A DNA stretch of 43,981 nt from Prolixibacteraceae bacterium (lineage in GTDB: Bacteria; Bacteroidota; Bacteroidia; Bacteroidales; Prolixibacteraceae). A model generated the notes under the pieces. The model was not told the DNA's origin, did no database searches, and saw only the letters and a program-made list of their open reading frames with translations. Positions 3,768 through 22,673 of this stretch are shown here, in pieces. Location of the stretch: contig JAQICD010000233.1 of assembly GCA_027858715.1 (NCBI GenBank), forward strand, positions 1 to 43,981, in the 5' to 3' direction. Position numbers and translations under genes: made by a program. Position 1 is the stretch's first letter. The number at the start of each line of letters is the position of its first letter.

Positions 3768-5297
3768 TTACTCCCATTCAATAGTTGCCGGTGGTTTTGA
3801 ACTGATGTCGTAAACTACGCGGTTGATTCCTCTTACTTTGTTAATTATGTTGTTTGATACTTTAGCCAAAAAATCGTAAGGTAGATGTACCCAGTCGGCT
3901 GTCATGCCATCGGTCGATGCTACAGCACGTAATGCAACTACATTTTCATACGTGCGTTCGTCGCCCATAACACCAACTGCTTGAACAGGCAGCAACATCA
4001 CACCGGCCTGCCATACTTCGTCGTACAGATTCCAACGGTGCAGTTCCTTGATGAAGATATCATCAGCTTCCTGCAAAATGCGAACCTTCTCGGGCGTAAT
4101 ATCGCTTAGAATGCGAATACCCAAGCCTGGTCCAGGGAATGGATGACGCCCCAGCAATTTGGGACTAATGCCAAGTTCGTGACCTACGCGGCGTACTTCG
4201 TCTTTGAACAAAGCTTTAAGCGGTTCAACAACTTTCAGATTCATTTTTTCAGGAAGACCGCCAACATTGTGATGTGATTTAATGGTTGCCGACGGGCCAT
4301 TTACTGATACCGATTCAATAACATCGGGATAAATTGTGCCTTGTGCAAGCCATTTTACAAACTTTATTTTGTGAGCCTCGGCATCGAATACTTCGATAAA
4401 ATCGCGACCAATAACTTTGCGTTTCTGTTCAGGGTCAGTTATTTCTTTCAGGTCGTCCCAGAATTTCTGTTTGGCATCGACACCAATAACATTGAGGCCC
4501 ATGCCCTGATACTGTTCAAGTACATTCTCAAACTCGTCTTTGCGGAGCAGACCGTTATCTACAAAAATACAGGTTAAGTTACTGCCAATAGCCAGGTTTA
4601 GTAAAACTCCGGCTACAGTCGAATCAACTCCACCCGAAAGTCCTAATACAATCTTATCGTTGCCTAGTTTCCTTTTGAGCTCGTCAACAGTTGATTCGAT
4701 AAACGATGCGGGTGTCCACGATTGTTCACATCCGCAAATATTTACTACGTAGTTGTACAATAACTGTTTACCTTCGGTAGTGTGGTAAACTTCTGGGTGA
4801 AATTGTATGGCGTAGGTTTTTTCGCTTTCAATTTTATAAGCGGCATTTTTAACATCCTCGGTGCTTGCAATGATTTTGTAGTTTTCGGGGAGTACTTCAA
4901 TGGTATCTCCATGCGACATCCACACCTGGCTGCCGTTTGAAATACCTTTGAACAAATCGCTGCTATGGTCAATTTCCTGAAGGTTTGCCCTGCCATATTC
5001 GCGGGAATCGGAAGCTGCAACTTTGCCGCCAAAGAAGTGAGCCATATACTGGGCGCCATAACAAACGCCTAAAACCGGCAGCTTTCCTTTCACTCCTTCA
5101 AGTTCGATACGAGGGGCATTTTCATCACGTACCGAAAACGGGCTGCCCGATAAGATTACGCCTTTTACACTTTCGTCGATAGGCGGGAAGTGGTTGAAGG
5201 GGTGAATTTCACAATAGACATTTAGTTCGCGTACCCTGCGTCCGATAAGTTGGGTGTATTGCGAACCGAAATCCAGAATTAAGATTTTTTCCTGCAT
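3768..5297 (-). CDS. guaA: GMP synthase (glutamine-hydrolysing)
   Basis: 509 residues, the usual full length. It converts XMP, ATP and glutamine to GMP, the last step of guanine nucleotide synthesis. The class I amidotransferase domain (1-190) has the nucleophile Cys79 in GVCYGAQ and the His167/Glu169 pair in FHPEV. The ATP pyrophosphatase domain has the P-loop SGGVDS at 221-226. The dimerisation domain ends in the family-typical PPATIEWE. All catalytic residues are present. It has its own promoter (5327-5334) and terminator, so it is independent of the leucine operon just upstream. Confidence 0.98.
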
Positions 5298-5419: not shown

Positions 5420-6490
5420 TTATTTCGAAGAAATATAATTTGTAAGCCAATCGCCCACATCGGAAGTTGAATGGGGGTTTTCACTCGATATATCTTCAGT
5501 AACAATCCCTTTTTCCATAGATTGTGCAACGGCTTCGCGAATAAGTGCACCTTCTTCTTTCATGTCGAAAGCATACTCGAACATCATAGCAGCAGAAAGT
5601 ACCGTTGCTATTGGGTTGGCAATATTTCTACCGGTTGCCTGTGGGTATGAACCGTGTATTGGCTCAAAAACACTAGTGTGCAGCCCTATTGATGCCGATG
5701 GGAGCAGGCCGAGAGAACCTGTAATAACGGAAGCTTCGTCGGTAAGTATGTCGCCAAACATGTTTTCGGTTACCATTACATCGAAGCTTTTTGGCCACTG
5801 AATAATTCGCATAGCGGCATTGTCAACAAACATGAATTCGGTTTCCACTTCAGGATATTTTGGTGACATTTCCTGACCAATCTGACGCCACAGTCGTGAA
5901 GTTTCCAGCACATTTGCCTTATCAACAATGGTGAGTTTTTTATTGCGTTTCATGGCATATTCGAAACCCAGTGTAAGGATGCGTTCAATTTCTTCACGAG
6001 TGTAAACGCAATTATCAAAAGCTGTGTTGCCATTATCTTCGCGGCCTTTTTCACCAAAATAAATACCGCCGGTAAGTTCGCGAATACACATAAAGTTGGC
6101 TCCTTCAACCAAATCCTTCCGAAGAGGCGACTTGTGTAGAAGCGATTCAAAAGTTTCGACCGGACGCAGGTTGGCATACAAACCGAGTTGTTTGCGCATC
6201 CTCAAAAGTCCTTGCTCGGGACGCACTTTTGCTGTTGGATCGTTGTCGTATTTTGGGTCGCCTATGGCGCCAAAAAGTACAGCATCGCTTTCCATGCAAA
6301 GCTGGTGTGTTTCAGCGGGGTAGGGGTCGCCTACCGCATCGATGGCACATGCCCCGGTTAATGCTTTTTTGTACTTTAGTTCGTGACCAAATTTATCGCA
6401 AACTGCTTTGGTTACTTTCAGCGCCTGTTCAATAATTTCAGGCCCGATTCCGTCGCCGGCTAATACGGCAATATTAAGTGTTTTACCCAT
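5420..6490 (-). CDS. leuB: 3-isopropylmalate dehydrogenase
   Basis: 356 residues, normal length. It oxidises and decarboxylates 3-isopropylmalate with NAD+, the third step of leucine synthesis. Visible family blocks are GDGIGPEII (N-terminus), [16 protein letters not shown] (substrate arginines), [23 protein letters not shown] (catalytic Lys), the metal-binding [12 protein letters not shown] and [18 protein letters not shown] (NAD site). It is the last gene of the leucine operon, 15 bp after the methyltransferase gene. If the LeuA-like gene upstream makes citramalate, LeuB would also act on 3-methylmalate for isoleucine. That second role is inferred. Confidence 0.97.
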
Positions 6491-6505: not shown

Positions 6506-7213
6506 TTATTTTATTCCTCCAAACGCCGCAAAGTTAAAATGCTTGTGCAGCAGTATGGTTTTAGTAAATCCAATTTTCTTCATCAATTCAAGCTGGTACG
6601 ATAATGTACGCGGTGTGTCTTCTGTTTCGTAACGGTTCATATACATTTCAACTTCGGTTTTGCTCACCTGTTTTTTTAAAATGCTGAGCCATCCACTAAG
6701 CATAATTTCATTAATTTCGTTGGTTTCTGAAATTACGATGTCGTTTATCCAGAACGAGCCACCAGGTTTTAGTGCCCGAAATATTTTTTCGAAAACCAGC
6801 TCCCATTCATCGTCTCCGCGCAGGTGGTGCAAAGTCGTTCCGGCAGTAATAATATCGAAGCTGTTTTCGCCAAGCTCAAGGTTACGATAATCGCCCTGCA
6901 TAGTTGTAACCTTGCCGCTGGTTATTTCTTTAACTCGTTTTTGAGCAGTTTGAACCATATTGTCACTGATATCTACGAGAGTAAAATCAATGAGAGGGAA
7001 AAGGGTAGCTACTTTTACAGCATAGTTGCCACCTCCACAACCTAAATCCATGATGCTTTCTGCATTTGGATTGGTCACTTGTGCAGCCTTTGAAACCAAT
7101 TCCATGCATAATGGAGAGTCAATAGCAGTAGTTTGTCCGGTTTCTATATTGGAAAACCGTTCAACTTGCTGATCAAAATTGTGTCGTATTGTATCGATGG
7201 ATGATTTTGTCAT
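6506..7213 (-). CDS. Class I SAM-dependent methyltransferase inside the leucine operon
   Basis: 235 residues. The SAM-binding fold is clear: motif I IMDLGCGGGNYAVKVA (about 54-69), acidic loop LVDISDNMV, motif II near FDIITAGTTLHHL and post-motif LKPGGSFWIND. The C-terminus (HKHFNFAAFGGIK) resembles a family often annotated as generic or CmoA-like methyltransferase. The start ATG overlaps the stop of the upstream LeuA-like gene by four bases (ATGA), so the two are translationally coupled and the methyltransferase is an integral operon member. Its substrate is unknown. One possibility is a carboxylate intermediate such as isopropylmalate, because yeast Tmt1 methylates 3-isopropylmalate. That is inference. 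The alternative is an unrelated tRNA or small-molecule methyltransferase. Confidence 0.88.
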   Translation of the reverse strand: MTKSSIDTIRHNFDQQVERFSNIETGQTTAIDSPLCMELVSKAAQVTNPNAESIMDLGCGGGNYAVKVATLFPLIDFTLVDISDNMVQTAQKRVKEITSGKVTTMQGDYRNLELGENSFDIITAGTTLHHLRGDDEWELVFEKIFRALKPGGSFWINDIVISETNEINEIMLSGWLSILKKQVSKTEVEMYMNRYETEDTPRTLSYQLELMKKIGFTKTILLHKHFNFAAFGGIK

Positions 7214-8823
7214 TTATAACTTAACTCAATAATATTCAACATCTTCATAGTTGCAATAATTGCAGCATTTGTTTGGTCAGGGTCGAGACCACGGGTTCTG
7301 AATTCTTTATCCAACTCCCAGGTGATTAATGTCTCAACCAGTGCATCGGTTTTTCCGCCTGGAGGAATAGTTACTGCATAATCGACAAGTTTCGGGAATG
7401 GCTTTTTCAGTTTTTTGTATATTTTTTTAAGCGCATTCATAAACGCATCATACTGTCCGTCACCAGTGGCTGTTTCTTCGTAATTTTTATCGTGATAGTT
7501 GATTGACAGTGACGAAACAGGTTTTAACCCGTATGCCATCGATACCGTAAAGTTTCGGATGGTGATAACCTGATCGACAGCATGTGTGCGTAGCACGTCT
7601 GAAACAATGTAAGGGAGTTCTTCGGCACTAACATTGGCTTTTTTATCGCCCAACTCAATTATCCGCTGTGTTACTTTTTTGAGTGAATCAGCATCGAGCG
7701 ATATGCCAAGATCTTCAAGGTTTTTCTTGATATTGGCTTTGCCCGAGGTTTTCCCAAGTGCATATTTTCGCTTACGGCCAAAACGTTCAGGCAGAAGTTC
7801 GTTAAAATACAGGTCGTTTTTATTATCTCCATCGGCATGAACACCGCTACATTGAGTAAATACAAACTCACCTATTAGTGGTTTATTGGTTGGGATGCGT
7901 ATCCCCGAAAATGTTTCAACAAGTTTACTGACTGTATTAAGTTTGTTTTCGCGGACGTTGGTTTCGAGTTGCATGTGATCCTTTATTGTCGCTATAACAC
8001 TTGAAAGCGGCGCATTTCCTGCCCGTTCGCCCAGACCGTTAATTGTTGTATGTATGCACCTAATGCCCGCTTTTATTGCATAAAATACGTTTGCAATTGC
8101 CAGATCGTAATCGTTATGAGGGTGGAAGTCGAATTTCAGTTCCGGATAACTTTCAACAATTTCTTTACAGAATGCGTATGTTTCATCAGGACTTAAAATG
8201 CCCAGTGTATCGGGAAGCATGAATCTATCAATAGCGCTCTCTTTTAGTCCGTTAATCATAAAATGCACATAGTCTTTGGAGCTACGCATTCCGTTCGACC
8301 AGTCTTCGAGATATACGTTTACTTTTATTCCTTTTTGTGATGCAAGTTCAATGTTTCTTTTTGCATCTTCAAGGTGTTCTTCGGGTGTTTTCCGAAGTTG
8401 TTCGGTAACATGTTTGTACGAACCTTTCAGCAAAAGATTCATTGTTCGGGCACCTGAGTCAACAATCCAATCGATGGAAATGCCGTTATCAACAAAGCCC
8501 AGTACTTCTATTTTATCGAGATGTCCGTTTTTAGAGGACCAGTTCGTAATTCGCTGAACTCCTTTAAATTCACCTTCCGAAACACGCGCTGAAGCTACTT
8601 CGATGCGGTCAATTTTTAAATCGTTCAGAAAAACCTGGGCCATACTCAATTTTTCCATCTCGTTAAATGAAACGCCTGTTGTTTGTTCACCATCGCGTAG
8701 GGTGGTGTCCATTATTTTGATCAGGTTGCCCCCCCCGCCCCCTGAAAGGGGAGTAAAAGTATCTACTCCTAGATTCCCTGAAGGGAACTTTCTGAGGCCT
8801 GCATTATTGTTATTGTCTTTCAT
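7210..8823 (-). CDS. cimA: LeuA-like acyltransferase, probable (R)-citramalate synthase
   Basis: 537 residues. The HMGL-like TIM barrel starts at [17 protein letters not shown] (about 37-53) and has the HPHNDYDLA metal site and GLGERAGNAPL. A C-terminal LeuA regulatory domain (about 400-537) ends with the allosteric-type block TIPPGGKTDALVETLITWEL. It is clearly distinct from the operon's true LeuA. The N-terminal barrel is most like Bacteroidota enzymes called citramalate synthase or second 2-isopropylmalate synthase. Citramalate synthase condenses pyruvate and acetyl-CoA as a threonine-independent entry to isoleucine; LeuCD and LeuB can then process the product. The assignment between the two activities is uncertain. 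Residues 11-33 (RKFPSGNL.., PLSGGGGGNL) are not family sequence but a translated inverted-repeat element. I kept this start because the next Met (38, at 8712) would remove the first barrel strand. Confidence 0.85.
   Translation of the reverse strand: MKDNNNNAGLRKFPSGNLGVDTFTPLSGGGGGNLIKIMDTTLRDGEQTTGVSFNEMEKLSMAQVFLNDLKIDRIEVASARVSEGEFKGVQRITNWSSKNGHLDKIEVLGFVDNGISIDWIVDSGARTMNLLLKGSYKHVTEQLRKTPEEHLEDAKRNIELASQKGIKVNVYLEDWSNGMRSSKDYVHFMINGLKESAIDRFMLPDTLGILSPDETYAFCKEIVESYPELKFDFHPHNDYDLAIANVFYAIKAGIRCIHTTINGLGERAGNAPLSSVIATIKDHMQLETNVRENKLNTVSKLVETFSGIRIPTNKPLIGEFVFTQCSGVHADGDNKNDLYFNELLPERFGRKRKYALGKTSGKANIKKNLEDLGISLDADSLKKVTQRIIELGDKKANVSAEELPYIVSDVLRTHAVDQVITIRNFTVSMAYGLKPVSSLSINYHDKNYEETATGDGQYDAFMNALKKIYKKLKKPFPKLVDYAVTIPPGGKTDALVETLITWELDKEFRTRGLDPDQTNAAIIATMKMLNIIELSYK
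8721..8792. repeat. GC-rich inverted-repeat element inside the coding sequence of the LeuA-like gene
   Basis: Three nested inverted repeats: CCCCT/AGGGG (8739-8743 with 8747-8751), GGAGTA/TACTCC (8750-8755 with 8764-8769) and the perfect palindrome TTCCCTGAAGGGAA (8774-8787). A run of C (8729-8736) adjoins. Composition is unlike the surrounding AT-rich genes. It resembles the element at 9550-9607 and reads in frame as an N-terminal extension. Confidence 0.75.
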
Positions 8824-8947: not shown

Positions 8948-9535
8948 TTATTTTTGCTCGTATGCTTCAATTTCATCTTTCATGTTTACCAGGTAGTCGA
9001 TATCATCGTAACCATTTAGCAAACAGGTTTTCTTGTAAGGATTGATTTCGAATTCAATAGAATTACCGGTTGTGTCGTTGGTGAAAGTTTGATTTTCGAG
9101 GGTTACCGTAAATTTTGCCTTGTTATCATTTTCAATCGACTCTAAAATTTCTTCCAGGAATTCGGGCGTTACCTGAACCGGAAGAAGACCGTTATTTAAA
9201 GCATTTCCTTTAAAAATATCGGCAAAAAAGCTTGATACAACAACTTTAAAGCCGCCATCGTAAATTGCCCATGCAGCATGTTCACGACTTGAACCGCTAC
9301 CGAAATTCTTTCCGGCGACAAGAATTGAACCTGAATATTCGGGTTTATTCATTACAAACTCAGGGTTTGGTGTTTCACCATCGAGATAACGCCAGTCGCG
9401 GAATAAATTATCGCCAAAGCCTTTGCGTTCAACGGCCTTTAAAAAACGGGCAGGTATTATCTGGTCGGTATCTACATTTTCTATTGGCAGGGGCACTGCC
9501 GACGATGTTATTTTTATGAATTTATCTATAGCCAT
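8948..9535 (-). CDS. leuD: 3-isopropylmalate dehydratase small subunit
   Basis: 195 residues. It is the small subunit of the aconitase-family enzyme that isomerises 2-isopropylmalate to 3-isopropylmalate. [13 protein letters not shown] near the N-terminus and [17 protein letters not shown] (about 75-91) are the signature swivel-domain blocks that bind the substrate carboxylate. Length fits the bacterial LeuD family. It is separated from leuC by 189 bp containing a large inverted repeat, which is unusual because leuC and leuD are often nearly contiguous. Confidence 0.97.
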
Positions 9536-9724: not shown

Positions 9725-11113
9725 TTAGGGCAGACTTACTTTTCCTTCTAAAGCACATGCTGCTGCTACCAGCGGGCTGGCAAGTAGTGTACGTGATTTT
9801 GGCCCTTGGCGTCCTTCGAAGTTTCGGTTTGTTGTTGAAACTGAATATTTTCCGGCAGGAACTTTATCGGGGTTCATAGCCAAGCATGCTGAACATCCGG
9901 GCTGACGGAGTTCGAAACCTGCGTCCTCAAGTATTTCAACCAATCCTTCTTCGCGAATTTGTTTTTCAACAGCTACCGAACCGGGTACCAACCAAGCCAC
10001 TACATCTTCAGCTTTCTTTTTACCTTTAACATAGTTGGTAAAAGTGCGAAAGTCTTCAATACGTCCGTTGGTGCAGCTTCCAAGGAAAACAAAATCAATC
10101 GGCTTGCCTAAAATCGGTTCTCCTTCGTTAAAGCCCATATATTCAAGTGATTTCTGGAAACTTTTTTTGTCGTTTCCGGTGAGCCCATCACTGGTTGGAA
10201 TGTTTTCCGATATTTTGATTCCCATGCCGGGATTTGTTCCGTAGGTAATCATAGGTTCAATGTCGGCTGCATCGAAGTTATATTCGGTGTCAAAAACAGC
10301 ATCATCGTCGGTTTTTAGCGTTTTCCAATAGGCCAACGCTTTATCCCAGTCTTCGCCATTTGGTGCATACATGCGACCTTTCACATAATCGAAAGTTGTT
10401 TCGTCGGGAGCAATTAAGCCGCCCCGTGCACCACATTCGATACTCATGTTGCAAACAGTCATGCGGCCTTCCATTGTCAGACTACTGATTGCCGAACCGG
10501 CAAATTCAACGAAATGTCCGGTTCCACCGCTGGTTGATATTTTCGAAATAACGTATAATGCCACATCTTTAGCGGTTACACCGGGCTTGAGTTCTCCATC
10601 GACTGTAATACGCATCCTTTTGGGTTTTGGTTGCATAATGCATTGGCTGGCCAATACCATTTCAACTTCGCTGGTTCCAATGCCAAAAGCAACAGCACCA
10701 AAAGCGCCATGTGTCGATGTGTGGCTGTCGCCACATACGATGGTCATGCCAGGTTGGGTGAGCCCTTGTTCGGGCCCGATGATGTGTACTACACCGTGAC
10801 CTTCTGTTCCAAGTCCATGGAATGTAATGCCATGCTCTTCGCAGTTGGTTTTAAGCTTTTCAACCTGGTTGCGCGAAAGCTCATCTACAATTGAAAGATG
10901 CTGATTAGTGGTTGGTACGTTATGGTCGGGAGTTGCTGTTGTTTGGTCGGGACGTGCAACTTTAAGCCCGCGGTTTTTTAGTCCCAGAAAAGCAACGGGG
11001 CTGGTTACTTCGTGAATGAAATGACGGTCGATGTATAAAACACTTGGGCCACCTTCAACTTTTTTCACTACGTGTGCATCCCAAACTTTGTCGAATAATG
11101 TTTTTGCTTCCAT
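9725..11113 (-). CDS. leuC: 3-isopropylmalate dehydratase large subunit
   Basis: 462 residues from the chosen start. The frame is open further upstream (to 11146), but the family N-terminus [16 protein letters not shown] begins at the Met at 11113; the extra 11 residues have no family match. Aconitase-fold blocks are present: [30 protein letters not shown], and the 4Fe-4S cysteines in [11 protein letters not shown] and [12 protein letters not shown]. With LeuD it forms the isopropylmalate isomerase. The same heterodimer could hydrate and dehydrate citramalate if the neighbouring LeuA-like enzyme makes it. It lies 113 bp after leuA, and nothing is recognised in that gap. Confidence 0.97.
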
Positions 11114-11226
11114 AAAAATTAATTTGAGTCGAAAAGCTTTTTGCAATCAGCTTTTTGCGACTATAATTGCTTTTGTTTTATTAATTGTCTTGGTATCGGA
11201 TTGTAACAGTTTCTATACTCAATTGT

Positions 11227-12735
11227 TTATTGATCAACAACTACAATTTTGTTAATAGCATCGAGATAGGCTTCAACCGAAGCTGTAATAATATCGGTAT
11301 GTGCCCCGAACCCGTGGAAATTGCGGGAGAGATGGCTGATCGTCATATGTACTTTACCGATATCGTCACTTCCTTTTGTAATTGCCTGTATCAGGAACTC
11401 CTCAACGGTAACCTGACGGGTGATGATTTGTTTAACTGCGTTAATGGCAGCATCAACCGGACCATTACCACTTGAGGTTGCAGCGAATTTTTCACCGGCA
11501 ATTACCAGGCGTACGCTGGCCATTGGTTCTAGTGACTGACCAGTTAAAACTTGCAGGTAGTCAAGCTTAATGCGGTCGTTATCGTGACGTACCTCACCAA
11601 CCAGCATCAAAAGATCATCTTCTTTGATGTCTTTTTTCTTGTCGGCCAGTTTCAGAAATTCGTGATATACCTCTTCCAGTTTATCTTTTTCGAGTACAAT
11701 GCCCAGGTTATGCAGATTGTGTTTCAAAGCTGCGCGGCCACTGCGTGCTGTAAGCAATATTGATGATTCGTTGATACCAACATCAGCCGGGTCGATAATT
11801 TCGTAATTTTCACGATTCTTCAATACGCCATCCTGATGAATTCCTGATGAGTGGGCAAATGCATTACGACCAACAATTGCTTTGTTGGGCTGAACGGGCA
11901 TATTCATAAGGCTCGAAACCAGTCGGCTAGTTTTATAAATATGCTTAGTGTTGATGTTGGTTGTTATGCCCATTTCCTTTTCACGGCTTTTAAATGTCAT
12001 TACTACTTCTTCCAACGAAGTGTTGCCGGCACGTTCTCCAATGCCGTTCATGGTAACTTCAACCTGACGTGCACCGTTAAGAATACCACTGACAGAGTTT
12101 GCGGTAGCCATTCCCAGATCGTTGTGGCAGTGTGTTGAAATGACTGCATTGTGCACACCTTTTACATTTTCCATTAGGAATTTAATTTTCTCGCCAAATT
12201 CGTGTGGCAAGGTGTAGCCAGTTGTGTCCGGAATATTTACGACTGTGGCACCGGCTTTTATAACGGCTTCAACAACTTTTGCCAGGTAAACATTGTCGGT
12301 GCGGCCTGCATCTTCCGCATAAAATTCTACGTCTTCAACGTACTTTTTTGCATATTTAACAGCGGCAACCGCACGTTCGATTATTTCGTCTTGGTTCGAA
12401 TTGAGTTTGTATTTAATGTGGTATGGCGATGTACCAATGCCGGTATGTATTCTGCCTTTTTTAGCGTGTTTTAGGGCATCGGCAGCTACATCGATATCTT
12501 TTTCAACTGCACGCGTTAAAGCGCAAATGGTTGGCCAGGTAACGGCCTTCGATATTTCGACCACCGAGTTGAAGTCGCCGGGGCTCGATATCGGGAATCC
12601 GGCTTCGATTACGTCAACGCCGAGTTCTTCGAGTGCTTTGGCTACTTCAATTTTTTCAATTGTGTTTAACTGGCACCCGGGAACTTGTTCCCCGTCGCGT
12701 AATGTCGTGTCGAAAATGTACAACCTGTCGCTCAT
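11227..12735 (-). CDS. leuA: 2-isopropylmalate synthase
   Basis: 502 residues. It condenses 2-oxoisovalerate and acetyl-CoA, the committed step of leucine synthesis. [16 protein letters not shown] (9-24) opens the barrel, [15 protein letters not shown] carries the metal-binding His pair, and [18 protein letters not shown] follows. The C-terminal LeuA dimer/regulatory domain (about 370-502) includes [16 protein letters not shown], which binds leucine for feedback inhibition in the family. It is the first structural gene of the operon, 48 bp after an intrinsic terminator that belongs to the leader attenuator, so its expression is probably set by both attenuation and feedback inhibition. Confidence 0.97.
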
Positions 12736-12783
12736 GGTTTTTTGTTTTTATGCCGATACCGGCTTGTTTAACTTTTTAATTAA

Positions 12784-12815
12784 TAAAAAAGCCACTCTCG
12801 TTATCTGAGAATGGC
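12784..12815 (-). terminator. Attenuator terminator (segments 3:4) before leuA
   Basis: On the minus strand GCCATTCTC (12815-12807) pairs with GAGAGTGGC (12799-12791): nine pairs with one U.G wobble and a 7-base loop, followed by seven T's (12790-12784). It lies between the leader peptide and leuA, where a terminator makes sense only if it is conditional. Confidence 0.88.
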
Positions 12816-12907
12816 CTTACAATTTTTTTGTTATTTTTTGCATGTGCATACCACTCTCAGTTCAGCTTTCCTAGAATTAGAATACCGAGTAGGCTAATGA
12901 GTGATAT
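12791..12907 (-). promoter_or_regulatory. Ribosome-mediated transcription attenuator of the leucine operon
   Basis: Four pairing segments are visible on the minus strand. Segment 1, ATATCACTC (12907-12899), is exactly leader codons 7-9. Segment 2, CTGAGAGTGGTAT (12860-12848), overlaps the leader stop codon. Segment 3, CCATTCTCAG (12814-12805), is the 5' arm of the terminator. Segment 4, GAGAGTGGC (12799-12791), is its 3' arm. 1:2 can form nine pairs with one wobble. 2:3 (antiterminator) can form ten with one wobble. 3:4 is the terminator. A ribosome stalled on the Ile/Leu codons covers segment 1 and frees 2 to pair with 3. A ribosome reaching the stop covers 2 and lets 3:4 form. This is the classical trp/leu attenuation layout; the working model is inference from the sequence. 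Confidence 0.82.
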
Positions 12908-12925
12908 GATAATGCTGTTTCTCAT
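12857..12925 (-). CDS. Leucine/isoleucine-rich leader peptide of the leucine operon
   Basis: 22 codons from ATG at 12925-12923 to TGA at 12859-12857: MRNSIIISLISL then LGILILGKLN. Six residues are Ile and six Leu, with no Val. The Leu codons are CTC, CTA, CTC, CTA, CTA and CTG, with none of the TTA or TTG that appear common in the neighbouring genes. One Ile codon is ATA. The peptide is followed by mutually exclusive hairpins and an intrinsic terminator before leuA. The peptide itself probably has no function; its translation would sense charged tRNA-Leu and tRNA-Ile. The alternative is a small membrane peptide, but the RNA structures argue for a leader. Confidence 0.82.
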   Translation of the reverse strand: MRNSIIISLISLLGILILGKLN

Positions 12926-12946
12926 TGTTGATTTACTTATTTGCTG

Positions 12947-12954
12947 CAAATATG
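12947..12954 (-). promoter_or_regulatory. Probable -7 box of the leucine operon promoter
   Basis: CATATTTG on the minus strand differs from TAnnTTTG only at its first base and lies 21 bp before the leader ATG, giving a very short 5' leader. No convincing -33 TTG is present. Confidence 0.45.
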
Positions 12955-13026
12955 AAAATAATTATTTAAAATGAAAATAATTCGGCCTTTTAATTGATGA
13001 TTTCAAAGTAAAATTAAATTTTTTGT

Positions 13027-14487
13027 TTAAAACGGACATTCTCCTTCTTTGAAATAGACTTTAATTTTAATGGTATTTATGCCGTTTTCGTTTTCTGTTA
13101 TATCGTAATCAATATATTCGATTTCGTTGTTTTTGTACGATGCGTTTTCTATTACATCGCTTATATCTTCGGGGTTCGTTGGAAAGTCAAACGACATATC
13201 CTGCCCGGTAATAGTTGCTTCTATGTTGTAGGTTTTATCGGGTTTAAGGTAAAGCGTTGACACTCCTTCTGTGAAACTGAAACGGTTATAAACTCTTTCA
13301 ATACCTTTTTCGGAAAAAGTGCCACTAGCCGATGGGGCTATGCCTAAAAAGTTACCAGGACAATAAAAACTTATGGCCACGTTGAATGGGGTTAGCCCTG
13401 CTTTTGGGCTTACAGATACCGATATGGTTTCCTCGCAAATGTTGTTTGACAATGAATAGCTACTTTTGTTTATGATATATTGTTCGTCGCCAAAAACTTT
13501 TAATGTTAATCCATTATTGTCAGTCGGGTAATAAAAACTACCGGTATTTATATCCTGAGGCATTTGCGAAGCACTTATGAAACCATCTTTTACTATCTCT
13601 TTACCTGATAAAATCTGGTAGTAAAAGGAAGCCGTTCCATTTAGTTTGTTTTCATTACTTATTTCAACGTTTATTCCATTTATGCATTCAATATAATTAT
13701 TGTTGCTTGTGGTCATGTAGGCTTTAAATTGAAGCGCATTATCGGGGAGTTCTGATGCCTGATTGGTTAATTCGATAATTGAGTATTCTTCGTTAGCGTT
13801 AACCAGATAGCCTTCGATTCCCCACGATTCGAATGATTGTTCTGGTTCTGTTAACGATAAGATGCCGGACAATGGGTCGTTAATCCTGTATATTCGATAA
13901 TAGTTTTTGCCGTTTTGTATAACTTTTTTGCTCAGTACATCCCAATCGGGGTTCTCGTCATTGATTATTGTGTTGTTGTAACGTAACTCGAATGGAGCAT
14001 CCGACATTTCGTTGTCGTTTGTATTTATCATTCTTACAATAACATTGTGTTGACCTGTGCCTGTGTAGGTTAATTTTATCGGAAAAGCATCGTAACCGTA
14101 TTCGGTATCATCACAAAATAGTGTGAGTTGTAATGGTGATGATTTTGATGGTTCTCTGTTTGGGTCAATAAAAATTTCGGCTTTACCTGTTTTTGTAAGC
14201 GAATAAACACGGTGTGTGCCTCCGGCATCAACAATGTATTGCGCATCATTACCCGTAAATGCAAAAATAATTTCGTTGCTATCGACATAGGATCCTGTGT
14301 TTTCATCAATAAAATGTAAAATGAGTTTTGTATCGAAAACATATGGGTCGATGAGCAATAATGAAATATCTTCACCAGTATCTTTGTTTTTTATCGGATT
14401 TTCGAACATGTTGTCGCATCCGGAAATTAAAAATATTATTAGTACAGCGAAAATGTTTATATGTATTTTGTGTTTAATTTGTTTCAT
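13027..14487 (-). CDS. Large lipoprotein of unknown function
   Basis: 486 residues from the Met at 14487. This start places a clean lipoprotein signal (MKQIKHKIHINIFAVLIIFL, ISGC with Cys24) at the N-terminus; the 16 upstream residues in frame look non-coding. The mature protein is rich in beta-strand-like sequence with Asn/Asp and Tyr, suggesting repeated Ig-like or beta-sandwich domains, but I recognise no family. It follows the beta-barrel gene by 13 bp, so the two are co-transcribed and may work together at the outer membrane. It is probably anchored in the outer membrane. The 100 bp between it and the leucine promoter hold no clear terminator. Confidence 0.75.
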   Translation of the reverse strand: MKQIKHKIHINIFAVLIIFLISGCDNMFENPIKNKDTGEDISLLLIDPYVFDTKLILHFIDENTGSYVDSNEIIFAFTGNDAQYIVDAGGTHRVYSLTKTGKAEIFIDPNREPSKSSPLQLTLFCDDTEYGYDAFPIKLTYTGTGQHNVIVRMINTNDNEMSDAPFELRYNNTIINDENPDWDVLSKKVIQNGKNYYRIYRINDPLSGILSLTEPEQSFESWGIEGYLVNANEEYSIIELTNQASELPDNALQFKAYMTTSNNNYIECINGINVEISNENKLNGTASFYYQILSGKEIVKDGFISASQMPQDINTGSFYYPTDNNGLTLKVFGDEQYIINKSSYSLSNNICEETISVSVSPKAGLTPFNVAISFYCPGNFLGIAPSASGTFSEKGIERVYNRFSFTEGVSTLYLKPDKTYNIEATITGQDMSFDFPTNPEDISDVIENASYKNNEIEYIDYDITENENGINTIKIKVYFKEGECPF

Positions 14488-21961: not shown

Positions 21962-22211
21962 CAAAATTCATTCTTTATATGCATCGTATAAAAGGGAAAA
22001 GGTATGGTTATTTTTCTGCAAAGTGTGTAGGGAACAAAATATCTATGATAGATAAATATTTGTGTCTTATCGAGGTTTTAGGATATTTTCATATAAACAA
22101 AATGAGCATTCGTCAACGCAAAATGTCATTTCATCAAAAGGTACTCAAAATATGCATGTTATGTGAATTTTTTTTGTGTATTTTGTCTAGAAATTTCAAC
22201 AGAACTAAAAC

Positions 22212-22673
22212 ATGAATACTAAATTATTATTTACTACGATTCTCTTGTTGGGAGCATTATTAGGAAAAGCTCAGCCAAACTTACCAGTGAAATTCAGGGT
22301 TGAAAAAAAATCAACTTCTGTACCCCTTTCCTCGTTAGATGAAATGTTTTTTAAAAAGTATTATTACACAAAGCCCGTAAACATCGAATTGTCGGAAAAA
22401 CAATTAAGTATTGTGTATGATAACGGCAAATATTTTACGAAGAAAGAAATTGGAGAAGTTGCACATGTTGAGGATATTTACGATGAAAAGCTGGAATATG
22501 AAACATTTATTTATGTTGATAAATCTGAGCGAGAAGATACCATTACATTTGTTATTGATTATTTGGTTGGTTTTTACCAGGTAACTATTCCTGAAAAAAA
22601 TTCGCATGGTGAAAATATCGGTTATACTTCATATATACATTTTTTAAATGACAATGAATTGGTTGCGAGATAA
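22212..22673 (+). CDS. Small secreted protein of unknown function
   Basis: 153 residues. A signal peptide (MNTKLLFTTILLLGALLGKA) precedes a mature part with many charged residues and alternating beta-strand character (IELSEKQLSIVYDN, DTITFVIDYLVGFYQVTIP). No cysteines, no lipoprotein box and no sorting domain are seen. I recognise no family. It is monocistronic with its own strong terminator. Probably periplasmic. Confidence 0.65.
   Translation: MNTKLLFTTILLLGALLGKAQPNLPVKFRVEKKSTSVPLSSLDEMFFKKYYYTKPVNIELSEKQLSIVYDNGKYFTKKEIGEVAHVEDIYDEKLEYETFIYVDKSEREDTITFVIDYLVGFYQVTIPEKNSHGENIGYTSYIHFLNDNELVAR

Follow-up and report, generated by a model that had tools for sequence, protein, structure and literature searches.

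A probable leader-peptide attenuator of the leu operon in a Prolixibacteraceae bacterium, and similar leaders before other amino acid operons of Bacteroidota

The 142 nt that lie ahead of leuA on the minus strand (12925-12784) of a Prolixibacteraceae contig very probably control the leu operon by ribosome-mediated transcription attenuation. We computed the anatomy, conservation, codon specificity and folding logic of this element, together with the covariation of its pairings 2:3 and 3:4, in the window (the whole stretch of 43,981 nt that was analysed) and in other genomes. The source assembly comprises 3.56 Mb in 279 contigs and is 82% complete, and its closest named relatives, judged by LeuA, are two Prolixibacteraceae assemblies with 89 and 90% identity. 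The order on the minus strand is leader ORF, terminator, leuA, leuC, leuD, a cimA-like gene, a methyltransferase-like gene, leuB and guaA. The methyltransferase-like gene (6506-7213) sits between the cimA-like gene and leuB, and guaA (3768-5297) follows leuB in the same orientation; both are candidate members of the operon.

Table 1. Features of the leuA leader element and its operon in the window (A1 and A2 are the two alignments described in the text)
Feature	Position	Strand	Remarks
Candidate Bacteroidota-type -7 promoter box CATATTTG	12947..12954	-	5/6 fixed positions of TAnnTTTG
Leader peptide ORF MRNSIIISLISLLGILILGKLN, 22 codons + TGA	12857..12925	-	6 Leu, 6 Ile, 0 Val; conserved in A1
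Segment 1 (codons 7-9, AUA UCA CUC)	12899..12907	-	Pairs with 12856-12848
Segment 2, contains leader stop codon	12848..12860	-	12860-12851 for 2:3; 12856-12848 for 1:2
Segment 3, common to antiterminator (2:3) and terminator (3:4)	12805..12814	-	Pairing, covariation, folds
Intrinsic terminator hairpin 3:4	12788..12818	-	12 pairs, then T-rich; 52 nt before leuA; covaries in A1 and A2
Segment 4, 3' arm of terminator, then U-rich tail	12788..12799	-	Terminator call and covariation
leuA, 2-isopropylmalate synthase	11227..12735	-	NF002086, 736 bits vs cut-off 532
leuC, isopropylmalate dehydratase large subunit	9725..11146	-	TIGR00170, 654.5 bits vs 560
leuD, isopropylmalate dehydratase small subunit	8948..9535	-	TIGR00171, 210 bits vs 116
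cimA-like gene	7210..8823	-	Best match NF042433 CimA, 664 bits, cut-off 950
leuB, isopropylmalate dehydrogenase	5420..6490	-	TIGR00169, 447 bits vs 353

An earlier note on this DNA had described a 22-codon leader frame, an intrinsic terminator ahead of leuA, a segment 1 that is identical with leader codons 7-9 and a segment 2 that overlaps the leader stop codon, and all four are present at the positions given in Table 1, with the stop codon inside the 2:3 portion of segment 2. Its counts of nine pairs for 1:2 and ten for 2:3 (one of them G-U) are likewise correct, but the nine pairs that it gave for 3:4 have to be raised to 12.

We infer that a promoter upstream of the leader is used and that ribosome stalling couples the operon to the supply of Leu and Ile. 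The transcript would begin with a short 5' UTR that has no Shine-Dalgarno-like (SD-like) site and continue into the leader. With ample charged Leu- and Ile-tRNA, the ribosome would reach the stop codon and cover segment 2, the 3:4 terminator would form, and transcription would stop about 50 nt before leuA. If Leu or Ile ran short, the ribosome would stall within codons 5-13 and cover segment 1; 2:3 would then pair before segment 4 is made, no terminator would arise, and the operon would be transcribed. In a leader that is not translated, 1:2 would form and leave 3:4 free. That Ile is sensed as well is plausible, given that LeuCD and LeuB double as enzymes of the citramalate route and that the operon holds the cimA-like gene. 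This gene is perhaps an (R)-citramalate synthase gene, a tentative call since its best match falls under its own cut-off; with such a product, the operon would serve isoleucine as well.

A terminator-like site by itself is ordinary, as one was found in a 901-base region in which 1.1 are expected. It is therefore conceivable that the hairpin is simply the unregulated terminator of the upstream gene (the ORF ending at 13027) and that the leader-like ORF arose by chance, given that chance terminator-like sites occur about once per 901 bases here. What is unusual, however, is the joint occurrence of an Ile/Leu/Val-rich leader and a terminator, which is met in 36 of 78 named leuA upstream regions and in none of 390 dinucleotide shuffles. 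A plain terminator also has no need of the conserved and covarying pairing 2:3. We regard this explanation as most improbable and retain the attenuator.

Conservation was followed in two sets of genomes. The set of relatives consists of 61 genomes, own included, 49 of which have LeuA at E<=1e-100. The 49 leuA loci and a cimA paralogue (L002) formed the starting set, from which the paralogue and a locus at a contig end (L011) were dropped, so that 48 loci, own included, were usable. An Ile/Leu-rich leader with a terminator precedes leuA in 32 of them. These were hand-picked as the 32 rows of alignment A1 from the output of a script, which had left the terminator of one locus (L034) unflagged. 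The element is absent from the other 16 upstream regions. Nine of these element-less loci have a match to model R1 on the same contig 4-6 kb upstream, and in five of the nine (in genomes G013, G014, G018, G019 and G023) ilvD directly follows the match. The E-values of R1 are circular for rows that were used to build the model.

The second set comprises 80 leuA loci from species named in GTDB, 78 with sufficient upstream DNA. To the 36 elements detected by the mechanical scan, inspection by eye added 12: of 16 loci with a terminator and no leader call, 13 were inspected and 12 accepted, the three with unlike hairpins (L273, L279, L282) being omitted. The resulting 48 loci, which constitute alignment A2, include records of Prolixibacteraceae, Dysgonamonadaceae, Tannerellaceae, Prevotellaceae, Muribaculaceae, Parabacteroides, Phocaeicola and Bacteroides; the remaining 30 of the 78 showed no element. 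Two cultivated relatives, Maribellus sediminis (L226) and Parabacteroides bouchesdurhonensis (L276), were found to have a leuA leader. The earlier note had made its reading depend on conservation of the peptide, and the peptide is kept in the 32 upstream regions of relatives as well as in the 48 named ones. A scan of the phylum with R1 retrieved the element from 30 of 395 genomes, own included, which is probably a lower bound because the training set of R1 consists of near relatives and filtering was stringent.

Compensatory change supports two of the three pairings. In A1, 95.8% of the cells of 3:4 are paired, a share that is partly circular since rows were selected for having the hairpin, and 12 cells show a double change, compared to 1.9 in shuffles. 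The pairing 2:3 played no part in the selection of rows; here 91.7% of cells are paired, with 11 double-change cells compared to 4.2. For both helices the double-change cells exceed those in all 500 shuffles, and five pairs of 3:4 and three of 2:3 have changed on both sides. A2 yields 96.9% paired cells and 39 double-change cells for 3:4 (shuffles 10.3 +/- 2.2), and 83.0% and 23 for 2:3 (7.3 +/- 2.3), values reached by none of 500 shuffles, although these covariation figures are not probabilities because shuffling leaves the relatedness of the loci in place. The number of 2:3 pairs in A2 with a double change (five) is not unusual, being matched in 111 of 500 shuffles. A second register of 2:3 in A2 has 79.3% of cells paired and 22 double-change cells compared to 7.9, and slid registers score well under the true one in both alignments. 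Two sequence types occur, GCCATTCTCA with TGAGAATGG and GCCTTTCTCACTTC with GAAGTGAG, and across them one and the same segment 3 retains its pairing to both segment 2 and segment 4. The two alignments are not independent, as some loci are the same or close (e.g. L210/L006, L211/L007, L247/L039).

The covariation that the earlier note had proposed to look for in segments 1-4 is thus found for 2:3 and 3:4 and not for 1:2, which in the window's register shows no excess in A1 (75.5% paired, shuffles 74.8%). For this reason a synonymous-codon test was applied to 1:2, with segment 2 placed either by the stop codon or by the alignment; the latter version is preferred because the leader frame overruns segment 2 in a few relatives. 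With placement by alignment, 20 of 32 leaders have a real 1:2 that is stronger than in their synonymous redraws at p<0.05 (Fisher p 3e-18), as do 16 of 25 genus-level representatives, which are still related to each other (Fisher p 1e-15). Redraws that use the leaders' own codon preferences leave 16/32 and 11/25, with p 6e-11 for the 25. Placement by the stop codon gives Fisher p 1e-15 for the 32 leaders, or 5e-8 if codon composition is kept. For the window alone, p is 0.018 with the stop codon and a borderline 0.054 with the alignment. The pairing 1:2 is therefore the weakest leg of the attenuator, supported by the choice of synonymous codons and not by covariation.

Predicted folds behave as the earlier note had supposed when it read the layout as one that lets ribosome position choose between terminator and antiterminator. 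The whole leader folds at -42.7 kcal/mol, compared to -23.8 +/- 3.3 in 200 dinucleotide shuffles (z -5.71), none of which is as good, and the alternative helices are recovered from truncated forms of the window's RNA: the intact leader gives 1:2 and 3:4, removal of RNA through codon 9 (to mimic a ribosome on segment 1) favours 2:3, and removal through segment 2 restores 3:4.

The 32 rows of A1 were also folded as transcripts that end before segment 4, either masking the leader or leaving it free, and without a shuffle control. Masking brings 2:3 to 7 or more expected pairs, for at least one mask length, in all 32 rows. With the leader free, 1:2 exceeds 2:3 in 24 of 32 (in the window 16.8 vs 0.1 expected pairs). 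Both behaviours together, i.e. fewer than 3 expected pairs of 2:3 when free and at least 7 when masked, are seen in 20 of 32 rows, again without a shuffle control. At equilibrium with segment 4 present, however, only 12 of the 32 elements have a terminator probability that falls to 0.3 or less under some mask (shuffled-leader controls 0/128), and the other 20 would need kinetic switching, governed by the order of RNA synthesis as the classical model has it. The window's element passes from 0.92 when free to a minimum of 0.01, but masks of 12 and 20 codons bring it back to 0.82 and 0.83.

The codons of the leaders follow the operon: Leu and Ile for leuA, with Val added for ilvD, and His for hisG. 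The 32 leuA leaders hold 175 Leu, 175 Ile and 13 Val codons, so that Val makes up 13 of 363 Leu, Ile and Val codons, compared to 127 of 354 in 31 ilvD leaders (Mann-Whitney p 1.3e-11). Scans without a shuffle control detected an Ile/Leu/Val-rich leader with a terminator ahead of ilvD in 27 of 30 loci, and His-rich leaders in 21 of 22 usable hisG upstream regions, own genome included. Among ilv-type elements, 2:3 is better than 95% of shuffles in 38 of 44. The Leu codon CUA accounts for 35% in leaders and 3.6% in leuA genes, UUG for 2% and 26%; some of the leaders' CUC share may serve pairing instead. In the own genome, contig C161 carries an ilv-type element (MTQIINISILSLLVVEVISMK), 98 nt from the contig end, and contig C183 a His leader. 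At hisG (loci L160-L181), the 21 His-rich leaders come with terminators and have up to six consecutive His.

Such specificity bears on the nature of the ORF, which might instead encode a functional small hydrophobic membrane protein, the terminator merely separating it from leuA. The peptide is indeed rich in Leu and Ile and its middle part is conserved within the family. A membrane protein, though, would hardly acquire Val before ilvD and His before hisG in step with the operon, nor would it account for synonymous codons that favour 1:2 pairing or for the overlap between stop codon and segment 2, seen in 26 of the 32 rows of A1 (the stop lies outside in the other six). We consider this very unlikely, if marginally less so than the two other alternatives discussed here. 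The codon specificity of the ilvD and hisG leaders is equally unexplained if the terminator answers to a T-box or ligand-binding riboswitch and the ORF is incidental. In other phyla, elements of this kind are among the regulators of amino acid operons, but across the window the gathering score of no Rfam family is reached. Positions 12700-13030 yield nine weak matches at E up to 10, all far under their cut-offs, such as Thr_leader (15.8 bits vs 55) and the trpB motif (18.2 vs 59), and no T-box or named riboswitch class is among them. Control by such an RNA is highly improbable, and an attenuator read by the ribosome is preferred.

Some further leaders were met outside these three groups. Among 23 thrA loci scanned (four partial or second-copy loci were excluded) there is one weak case with a TTG start. 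At L125 (G391:C1:209345-209477), a leader rich in Thr and Ile, read by eye (MNFIITTTTISTTTTISSC...), and a terminator precede a gene for a bifunctional aspartokinase/homoserine dehydrogenase. An R1 match at L126 (G021:C22:45458-45598) has a Cys/Met-rich leader, also read by eye (MTTCSTNMMMCMCCGSFLQKERS), and a terminator before cysJ-cysI; this leader would sense sulfur amino acids. Attenuator-like elements at L127 and L128 (G027:C4 and G036:C1) have full leaders rich in Ala, Ile and Val, and an attenuator-like partial match in the own genome (G000:C114:7644-7709) shares their gene context. The gene that follows these three elements matches a MocR-like PdxR model below its cut-off and is perhaps an aminotransferase gene.

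The least expected result is that two or three complete attenuators stand in series before some ilv operons. With R1, two elements in a row were retrieved from 7 of 61 relatives (E<=0.01) and from 4 of 395 genomes of the phylum (E<=0.001), the paired matches being separated by 0-56 nt; a separate scan found two elements in 4 of 30 ilvD upstream regions of relatives. Three elements precede ilvE-ilvD at L122 (G317:C29, about 22088-22480, minus strand), the first with a TTG start and a weak 2:3 (-5.4 kcal/mol), the last two with near-identical leaders that probably reflect a recent duplication. Two in series are present at L112, L113, L114, L115, L116, L117, L118, L120, L121 and L123, the second unit of L118 being without a good 2:3. 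Wherever the downstream gene was identified it is ilvD or ilvE; two ORFs downstream of L123 match no NCBIfam family at E<=1e-30. In the wider class, ilvD was found in 20 of 99 genomes at the cut-off used, and the separate scan placed two elements before none of 21 ilvD loci, an argument against a general occurrence of tandem arrays; one match within 1500 nt was obtained at 10 of the 21, several of doubtful quality.

The candidate -7 box lies 29 to 22 nt upstream of the leader start codon. All 32 aligned leaders have, 45-20 nt ahead of the start, a box that departs in no more than one position from TAnnTTTG, which we take to be the -7 consensus of Bacteroidota. This evidence is only suggestive, since 530 of 1600 mononucleotide shuffles contain so short a pattern too. 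Bacteroidota mostly begin translation without Shine-Dalgarno pairing, and an SD-like tetramer precedes 3 of the 32 aligned leaders, the window's leader not being one of them.

The enterobacterial leu attenuator (RF00512) likewise combines a Leu-rich leader ORF, alternating segments and a terminator before leuA. The window's element, which matches Rfam Leu_leader neither at the gathering score nor up to E 10, is not a member of that family. It differs in the six Ile codons beside Leu and in the cimA-like gene of its operon, and the aligned leaders differ in the scarcity of SD-like sites (3/32) and in the candidate -7-type box. The preference for CUA is shared: enterobacterial leu leaders favour it as control codon (PMC1183508).

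A comparative study of 2004 by Vitreschak and co-workers reportedly included Bacteroidetes/Chlorobi in its listing of attenuation. The earlier note was right that attenuators are best known in Proteobacteria; leaders in Bacteroidota are nevertheless not unheard of. Strong clues to leader-peptide attenuation upstream of amino acid biosynthesis operons were presented for Flavobacterium psychrophilum (PMC9723704, 2021), which agrees with our case in phylum and type of operon, although the available main text names no leu operon element. In Bacteroides thetaiotaomicron, a member of the same order, 5' UTRs contain short ORFs reminiscent of attenuation leaders (PMC7366714); the example in the accessible text, BT_4401, is not an amino acid operon, and a leu element is not named there. 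Leader peptides before amino acid biosynthesis genes are also described for attenuators of branched-chain amino acid (BCAA) operons in Actinobacteria and Staphylococcus (the latter peptide leucine-rich), which belong to other phyla and are likened here by their description (PMC1262725, PMC5794164). The tandem attenuators of Salmonella mgtCBR have two short ORFs in one leader, comparable to the ilv leaders of the relatives, but respond to ATP and proline (PMC3641672), in contrast to the two or three BCAA-type elements of Bacteroidota arrays, which lie in other genomes and not at the window's leuA. Titles and abstract openings yielded no description of leu or tandem ilv attenuators in Bacteroidota, a weak result, since the coverage did not extend to most subscription journals or to a comparative study of 2010 that PMC4833913 cites.

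On balance we lean, if only slightly, towards a wider interpretation, in which the leuA element would be one node of a Bacteroidota-wide set of leader attenuators (leuA, ilvD/ilvE and hisG, with single thrA-type and cysJI cases). Their leaders would mostly lack SD-like sites, and some ilv operons would stack two or three of them, to be transcribed only once several ribosomes had each read BCAA shortage. The single element adds to a known kind; its spread and the arrangement in series are the part for specialists to follow. Attenuation needs a leading ribosome that paces RNA polymerase, and widespread switches that are codon-specific and covary would therefore be indirect evidence of transcription-translation coupling. 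The leu, ilv and his leaders are ready reporters for testing such coupling in Bacteroidota, and the series arrangement offers a natural design for multi-step gating. If the wider interpretation is true, the upkeep of such a set would imply that ribosome and RNA polymerase are tightly coupled in Bacteroidota.
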